From contig JACQZB010000032.1 of NCBI GenBank assembly GCA_016207925.1, positions 1-34,456 on the forward strand: a DNA stretch of 34,456 nt, read 5' to 3'. This DNA is from Nitrospinota bacterium. Its GTDB lineage: Bacteria > Nitrospinota_A > UBA7883. Shown here in pieces: positions 3,981-5,461 of this stretch. The notes under the pieces were generated by a model. That model was not told the origin of the DNA. It made no database searches and saw nothing but the letters and a program-made list of their open reading frames with translations. Each line of letters begins with the position of its first letter. The first letter of the stretch is position 1. The position numbers and the translations under genes were made by a program.

Positions 3981-4184
3981 TTACTTGAGGGCGATTTCGA
4001 GGGGATGGTTTTTCAACTGGCTGACCTTCATTATGGAAAAGCCCAACACGTTTCCATCGGCGTCCACTTTTTCCATGACCTGATCGTTGCCAGTCTCGCG
4101 GAAGTATCCCGCCTTGTTCTGGAAAGTGACCTCGAGAAAATCCCCCTCAGGGTCATACCAGACTTTTACGATGGCCTTTTCCAT
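3981..4184 (-). CDS. DUF2283 family small protein (possible antitoxin partner)
   Basis: The 67-residue product has the DUF2283 pattern: 'VWYDPEGDFLEVTF' at the start and 'DADGNVLGFSIMKVS' near the end, predicted to be a small beta-rich fold. No biochemical function is established for the family. It overlaps the 3' end of the preceding gene by 19 bases and has its own Shine-Dalgarno (AAGGTGAG, about 5 bases before the ATG), so the two are translationally linked. DUF2283 genes are repeatedly found beside small RelE/nuclease-fold proteins, which makes an antitoxin or neutralising role plausible; that is inference. It is the last gene of a three-gene minus-strand operon. Confidence 0.8.
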   Translation of the reverse strand: MEKAIVKVWYDPEGDFLEVTFQNKAGYFRETGNDQVMEKVDADGNVLGFSIMKVSQLKNHPLEIALK

Positions 4185-4486
4185 ACGATCTCACCTTGCT
4201 TGATTTTATCAGTTAGATACGCCGTTAGCAAAAATGCCCCAGCCTCACCTTTTTTCACCACGGCGCAAAGATATTTACCTCCAACCGGGGTATGTTCATA
4301 ATAGCGGTAGTAAAGAAGCGCCTCGCTGTCGCTGGCCGAGCGGTTCACCCGCACGGGAGATTGAAGGGTCTCCTCAATGGCCGGAAACATATCCGCCATT
4401 TCCGGATGTTCCAGAATATGCGCCATCCGTTCATTGGTAATCCTGACGGGGGTATTGCGGTAATCGAATATCCGCCGCACGGTCAA
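4166..4486 (-). CDS. Small protein, putative RelE/PBECR-like fold (possible toxin)
   Basis: The 106-residue product shows 'RITNERMAHILEHPEM', 'LLYYRYYEHTPVGGKYLCAV' and the C-terminal 'GAFLLTAYLTDKIKQGE'. This helix followed by a meander of strands, ending in a T-A-Y strand, is what small BECR-fold proteins (RelE, BrnT, PBECR groups) look like. I recognise the pairing with DUF2283 but cannot name a validated family, and nuclease activity is not shown. The start is a TTG that overlaps the upstream stop (TTGA); a GTG two codons in is the alternative. The upstream gene ends inside this start and the downstream gene starts within its 3' end, so all three form one unit. Confidence 0.65.
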   Translation of the reverse strand: MTVRRIFDYRNTPVRITNERMAHILEHPEMADMFPAIEETLQSPVRVNRSASDSEALLYYRYYEHTPVGGKYLCAVVKKGEAGAFLLTAYLTDKIKQGEIVWKRPS

Positions 4487-4821
4487 TCGCCAAGATTTAT
4501 TTGAAGGTCTCCGCCAAACTGTAACCCGGTTACCTTGCCCGCCATTTCAATAATATCGCTGATGTTTTTCCGGCTATAGTTTGTCCCAAGCCAATACCCG
4601 GAGGATAGTTGCAACGAATATTCGCTTACCAAGTCTGGCCGGCCAGGGTATAGCTCGTCAGAATTTCTTGCGAGGTATCGGCGTTTACGTCCATGCTTGG
4701 GAAGCGCGGCGAAACGATCTAGAAATGTCGTATCGCGTTTCGCCAGCAATTCAAAAACCTGAACCATTACATCTTTTGCGTTTCGCGCGGAGTGTTCCTT
4801 CCCTTCAAACACAAACCCCAT
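4483..4821 (-). CDS. Hypothetical protein resembling the SeqA C-terminal DNA-binding domain
   Basis: The 112-residue protein is first in the minus-strand operon. Its core order, a helical 'VMVQVFELLAKRDTTFLDRF', then 'HGRKRRYLARNSDELYPG', then 'SGYWLGTNYSRKNISDIIE' and a final helix/strand 'GLQFGGDLQINL', parallels the C-terminal domain of SeqA (GRxRRYFAR... and PxxPxWVxTNTNTxRK...), which binds hemimethylated GATC DNA. The match is by eye and remote. The SeqA N-terminal oligomerisation domain is absent, so it is either a stand-alone module or the remnant of a longer gene. The upstream frame is open to 4906 but has no start. No Shine-Dalgarno is visible before the ATG. Base composition is lower in GC than the neighbours. 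Confidence 0.6.
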   Translation of the reverse strand: MGFVFEGKEHSARNAKDVMVQVFELLAKRDTTFLDRFAALPKHGRKRRYLARNSDELYPGRPDLVSEYSLQLSSGYWLGTNYSRKNISDIIEMAGKVTGLQFGGDLQINLGD

Positions 4822-5008
4822 GGAGGAAGGCGATTGGGCGGAATGGGGGGGCGTGGCGGCATGCGTGGGCTTGGAACGGGCGTGTTTCCGGAAACCTTGC
4901 CCACCTTACTCATTCGGCTCTTCCCCGTGCGCAGATAGGACTTGACGCGGATTATACTACCAGCATGTGATAATGGATATGACCAAAATAATCAGGAGAA
5001 ACCTCCCC
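4822..5008. promoter_or_regulatory. Intergenic region with candidate divergent promoters
   Basis: This 187-bp gap between divergent genes contains a perfect minus-strand TATAAT (4951-4956 in plus coordinates) that could drive the small-protein operon with a roughly 120-base leader. On the plus strand, TTGACG at 4942-4947 and TATACT at 4953-4958 are too close together to form one promoter. No clear -35 accompanies either -10. A good ribosome binding site (AGGAGAA) sits about 10 bases before the peroxiredoxin ATG. Confidence 0.3.
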
Positions 5009-5461
5009 ATGCTCACCGAAGGCTCGAAAGCCCCCGCGTTCACGTTGCCGGATCAGGAGGGCAAGCCGCGCTCATTGGCGGAGTTTGCCGGAAAGCGGCT
5101 GGTGATCTTCTTCTACCCCAAGGCCAACACCGGAGGCTGAACATCCGAGGCGGCCGGGTTCCGGGACGCGCAAGACGATTTCAAGAAAAACAAGACGGCC
5201 ATCATCGGCATCAGCCGCGACAAGCCCGCCACGCAAAAAGCGTGGGCGGAAAAATATTCGCTCCCCTTTCCGCTGCTTTCCGACCCGGACGCGGCTGTCC
5301 ATAAAAAATACGGCGCCTGGGGCGCGAAAACCTTGTACGGGGAAAAACGCCAGGGAGTGATCCGCACCACCATCGTGGTGGGCGCGGACGGCGCCGTGGA
5401 GCGGATATACCGGAACGTCAAGGCGCTGGGTCACGCCGCCGCCGTGCTGGGTGGGTTGTGA
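5009..5461 (+). CDS. bcp: Selenocysteine-containing BCP/PrxQ-type peroxiredoxin
   Basis: Read from the ATG at 5009 this gives a complete 150-residue thioredoxin-fold peroxiredoxin interrupted only by TGA at codon 44. Around it the protein reads 'FFYPKANTGG-U-TSEAAGF', where BCP/PrxQ enzymes have FYPK..TPGCT.EA..F, so the TGA sits exactly at the peroxidatic cysteine. After the TGA the frame stays open to 5459-5461 with full family similarity ('IIGISRDKPATQKAWAEKY', 'LLSDPDAAVHKKYG', 'RTTIVVGADGAVERIYRNV'). The family reduces H2O2 and organic hydroperoxides in the cytosol. The PrxQ resolving cysteine, five residues on, is alanine here and there is no other cysteine, so the enzyme would be a 1-Sec type needing an external thiol. 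TGA is a normal stop elsewhere in this window. The ORF track lacks it. Gene symbol follows family usage. Confidence 0.87.
5138..5169 (+). promoter_or_regulatory. In-frame TGA (Sec codon) and candidate bacterial SECIS hairpin
   Basis: Directly after the TGA (5138-5140) the sequence can fold as GCG (5150-5152) with CGC (5167-5169), a small internal loop, then CCGG (5154-5157) with CCGG (5161-5164), closing a GTT loop at 5158-5160. The apical G lies 18 bases from the TGA, within the spacing used by bacterial SECIS elements that recruit SelB, and a G-U at the loop start is the known recognition feature. The fold was made by eye, without an energy calculation. Confidence 0.65.

Follow-up and report, generated by a model that had tools for sequence, protein, structure and literature searches.

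The locus examined here raises the question of how a reading frame resembling a bacterial peroxiredoxin can carry a stop codon at the very position of its catalytic residue. The frame lies at positions 5009-5461 on the forward strand of the window, by which we mean the whole 34,456-nucleotide stretch of Nitrospinota DNA that was analyzed, and encodes 150 amino acids when its one internal stop, the TGA at 5138-5140 (codon 44), is translated as selenocysteine (Sec, U). This translation reads MLTEGSKAPAF...FYPKANTGGUTSEAAGF...AVLGGL and ends at a second TGA (5459-5461), and a likely ribosome-binding site, AGGAG (4994-4998, forward strand), precedes the ATG at 5009 by 10 nt. As the initial annotation had remarked, the frame is missing from the standard-code list of open reading frames of at least 80 aa. 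We are highly confident that this is a functional selenoprotein gene, in which UGA codon 44 is decoded as Sec at a bacterial SECIS element (bSECIS) and the product is a 1-Sec peroxidase of the BCP/PrxQ type that is reduced by an external thiol.

Homology to the BCP/PrxQ enzymes extends over the full length of the protein. The Pfam AhpC-TSA domain is matched by residues 5-132, thereby spanning the TGA (E=4.7e-38, 130 bits), and the NCBIfam model for thioredoxin-dependent thiol peroxidase (BCP), PRK09437, gives a score of 145.3 against a cut-off of 140. BCP/PrxQ enzymes are also the closest solved structures when the PDB is searched with phmmer, and their peroxidatic Cys aligns with the TGA, the predicted Sec being residue 44. 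These alignments, together with the single internal stop, uphold the original description of a BCP/PrxQ frame broken once, at the codon for the peroxidatic Cys. The motif PxxxTxxU is formed by P37, T41, and U44, and these positions and the catalytic arginine, R119, are invariant active-site residues in an alignment of 13 homologs (A2). In the AlphaFold2 model (mean pLDDT 94.8), residue 44 is found within the first turn of a helix formed by residues 42-53, as expected for the peroxidatic residue of BCP/PrxQ. GC3 values on the two sides of the TGA (0.84 and 0.79) are like those of other genes in the window, and the codon 44 site is among the 11 positions returned by a scan of the window for in-frame TGA candidates based on GC3 only. 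When the region around the peroxiredoxin gene was searched against plasmids, all of the best five matches listed were at infA. Upstream, an ORF on the reverse strand (4166-4486) has a weak, below-cutoff match to PBECR2, a phage-type nuclease domain, and the adjoining reverse-strand ORF (4483-4821) has no Pfam match.

A single-codon interruption within a draft assembly might be nothing more than a sequencing error, or a recent nonsense mutation that turned the TGC or TGT of a Cys-type PrxQ into TGA, and this explanation gains something from the ortholog L105 of a relative, G010, which has TGC at the codon 44 site. A search that took in 40 related genomes, however, found full-length orthologs in eight of them, all members of the same family or order, with identities of 55-64%, and in seven of these eight the gene is interrupted by a single in-frame TGA that falls at the same codon. 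(The protein of L019 is identical to that of G004, which belongs to the same family.) The UGA is therefore both aligned with the Cys of homologs and conserved in orthologs, as in bacterial selenoprotein genes, and the seven other genomes of the order that share it were assembled separately. Moreover, the sequence downstream of the TGA is constrained: dN is 0.06 and dS is 0.40 for the two members of one genus (G006 and G005), while in other pairs third-position changes are about twice as numerous as those at position 1 or position 2. As judged from these substitutions, purifying selection acts downstream of the TGA, and the third-position bias indicates that the interruption is neither a sequencing error nor the mark of a pseudogene. 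Error or recent mutation is also at odds with the presence of selB, selC, and a Sec-type selD in the genome, and with the fact that the resolving Cys of most Cys homologs is absent from the window gene. Conservation in effect refutes this explanation, to which we assign a negligible probability.

The initial annotation also described a hairpin with a G-U apical loop that begins within 10 bases of the TGA, and called for the region 5130-5180 to be checked against a bacterial SECIS model. Folding places a SECIS-like hairpin, GCG-g-CCGG [GUU] CCGG-ga-CGC, at 5150-5169 on the forward strand, with stems at 5150-5152/5167-5169 and 5154-5157/5161-5164, an apical GUU loop (5158-5160) located 17 nt after the TGA, and a folding energy of -9.9 kcal/mol. 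These values satisfy the published bSECIS model (PMC13188914), namely a loop of 3-9 nt with G in the first two loop positions, a spacing of 16-37, and an MFE of at most -7.5, and the element expected of a bacterial selenoprotein gene is thus in place. The hairpin from one sequence is, nevertheless, no evidence by itself, because dinucleotide shuffles fold at least as well (z +0.9) and the same SECIS rules are passed at 98 of 400 random positions (about 25%) in this GC-rich window. We rejected single-sequence SECIS significance as evidence on the grounds that a quarter of random stretches pass. When the same peptide was recoded synonymously 400 times, 123 of the versions passed the rules and just 19 formed these seven pairs.

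It is the conservation of the hairpin, and not the hairpin alone, that counts as evidence. Its position, loop, and stem are kept in the orthologs, and across the eight orthologs 96.4% of the cells for the seven pairs are paired, compared to 18-43% for slid controls, with the qualification that the strict 4-bp upper stem fails in L106, for which a bulged form is needed. Two pairs are compensated, one changing from A-U to G-C in the window and the other from G-C to A-U in L106; with this small number of sequences, the apparent covariation is suggestive, not strong. In addition, same-codon conservation is higher for codons 45-55, which span the SECIS element, at 0.62, than for the remainder of the gene, at 0.46 (permutation p 0.013). 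Stopping at UGA when selenium is short is a general property of bacterial Sec codons. This property, and a hairpin that directly follows the UGA, might be taken to mean that the locus is a selenium-gated switch, with translation terminating at codon 44 under selenium shortage so that the full-length enzyme is made in selenium-replete cells only. The locus showed no feature specific to such a switch, and the behavior is compatible with the selenoprotein reading and is no true alternative to it; as an explanation in its own right we regard it as very unlikely.

Whether the source organism could read UGA as Sec depends on its decoding machinery, and the initial annotation had proposed that selA, selB, selC, and selD be sought in the genome, naming their absence from the complete sequence as a refutation. 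The genome is a draft of 2.67 Mb in 170 contigs that is 90.87% complete. Three of the four are present, as they should be in the host of a bacterial selenoprotein. The selC gene on contig C109 scores 79.1 bits, which exceeds the cut-off, and is called as tRNA-SeC(tca) by ARAGORN; selB (359 bits) is on contig C40; and selD (335 bits) is on contig C125 and has an in-frame TGA of its own within TSGGUGSK. The selD gene (L015, G000:C125:2262-3215, reverse strand) is thus itself a selenoprotein gene, and standard-code annotation will truncate it as well. The fourth gene, selA, was not found in the 90.87%-complete draft with either TIGR00474 or PF03841. Among relatives, selA is present in 6/6 other genomes of the family and 3/5 other genomes of the order (9/11), with scores that exceed 540 bits in each case, and in three genomes of the same family it adjoins a TIGR03960/TIGR03936 radical SAM gene. 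The portion of this selA neighbor that is fused to it in the relatives, TIGR03936, is likewise absent from the source draft. A TIGR03960 match was considered as a marker of the selA site and rejected, the genome's one match being another radical SAM gene that is 27% identical to the selA neighbor. Given that all six other family genomes have selA and that the draft is incomplete, the likeliest explanation is that an assembly gap, or a region left unassembled, accounts for the missing selA and probably for its missing neighbor as well.

With selA missing from the draft, Sec-tRNA synthesis in the source genome is presumed, which lends some weight to the idea that UGA is read here as another amino acid, such as Trp or Cys, through near-cognate suppression or a partial code change. 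Set against this idea are the finding that genes in the window end more often in TGA than in any other stop codon (14 of the 22 clear genes), as well as the presence of selB, tRNA-Sec, and a Sec-type SelD, the requirement for Cys or Sec chemistry at this position, and the occurrence of selA throughout the rest of the family. We consider decoding as another amino acid to have only a very slight chance of being correct. The same stop-codon count agrees with the earlier statement that TGA is an ordinary stop in a standard code, and the companion proposal that the organism decodes UGA as Sec is now supported by selB, selC, and selD, by the TGA shared with seven other genomes of the order, and by the conserved hairpin. 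The UGA at catalytic codon 44 is, then, almost certainly read as selenocysteine.

What kind of enzyme results is suggested by its Cys content. The claim that the protein has no other cysteine and lacks the PrxQ resolving residue is borne out: there is no Cys anywhere in the chain, and on the basis of its sequence the window protein is classified as a BCP homolog of the 1-Sec type rather than an atypical 2-Cys PrxQ. No other Cys is present in any of the 14 Sec homologs found, compared to at least one in 91 of 95 Cys homologs, most often at CP+5 (73 cases), although the rows in these two groups are related and a Fisher value on the counts is not a probability. In the remaining four of the 95 Cys-type homologs, the second Cys is missing from the aligned stretch. 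The homolog tree requires at least two changes between Cys and Sec, and three in its best form. One Cys homolog that lacks a second Cys in its aligned stretch (L071) groups with a Desulfobacterota Sec clade (support 80), and loss of the second Cys may therefore precede the arrival of Sec rather than follow it.

Sec-type BCPs were also seen outside the Nitrospinota. A second Sec-type clade is formed by sequences from Desulfobacterota and Myxococcota MAGs (L059, L064, L074, and L088, each from 3001 to about 3400), which also have no other Cys and possess a different, longer hairpin with an 8-9 bp stem and a loop 23 nt after the UGA. In a Neomarinimicrobiota MAG, a divergent BCP gene (L096:3001-3444) has TGA as its peroxidatic codon, within TPGU, and possesses a SECIS-like hairpin with the same spacing as that in the window. 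We tentatively raise the possibility, which we hold to be somewhat less than even, that Sec-type BCPs are a recurrent 1-Sec class whose members in Nitrospinota, Desulfobacterota, and Neomarinimicrobiota separately lack any other Cys. The catalytic cycle of such a class would no longer pass through an intramolecular disulfide and would instead depend on reduction by an external thiol, as it does in the glutathione peroxidases of animals.

In the mechanism that we propose, SelB and tRNA-Sec would decode UGA codon 44 as selenocysteine at the downstream bSECIS hairpin. The predicted Sec44 would sit at the N-terminal end of helix alpha-2, share the active site with T41 and R119, and attack peroxides. 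An external thiol would be needed because the chain has no other Cys, and the selenenic acid would presumably be reduced by thioredoxin, a low-molecular-weight thiol, or another redoxin. The enzyme, in other words, probably works as a 1-Sec peroxidase dependent on such a thiol.

Sec-containing peroxiredoxins of the Bcp type are already catalogued. COG1225 (Bcp) members with a TxxU motif are listed among the known prokaryotic selenoproteins, with WP_011365628.1 as an example (PMC9312934), and Sec-type peroxiredoxins numbered 12 in a 2006 count, which also takes in five Cys-to-Sec events (PMC1794560). The GOS survey yielded 253 sequences (PMC2398784), and a comparison across more than 5,200 organisms recorded the family in 78 of them (PMC5029168). 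The window protein is the same BCP-type peroxiredoxin, with Sec for the peroxidatic Cys in PxxxTxxU; it differs from the catalogued members in its Nitrospinota lineage. It has no other Cys. PrxU of Eubacterium acidaminophilum is also a Sec-containing peroxiredoxin (Soehling et al. 2001, cited by PMC13188914) but belongs to another subfamily, the window protein scoring 42.3 bits with the corresponding NCBIfam model (peroxi_PrxU, NF040737) against a cut-off of 270. With Cys-type PrxQ/BCP enzymes (PDB 3gkk and 5iiz, and the G010 ortholog) it shares the fold family and the active-site P, T, (C/U), and R, whereas these proteins have Cys in place of Sec and most possess the CP+5 Cys that it lacks. 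Our literature search, the coverage of which leaves out many journals, found no paper on selenoproteins in Nitrospinota.

The known picture of Sec decoding is unchanged by these findings. The window gene adds a Nitrospinota member to the catalogued Sec-containing Bcp-type peroxiredoxins, and places a Sec-type BCP in an order in which the gene is kept with its TGA. It is also a genuine gene, overlooked both by ordinary gene calling and by the standard-code ORF list. Among the collected homologs, the difference between Sec and Cys goes together with the absence or presence of a second Cys, a relationship that can be tested enzymatically.
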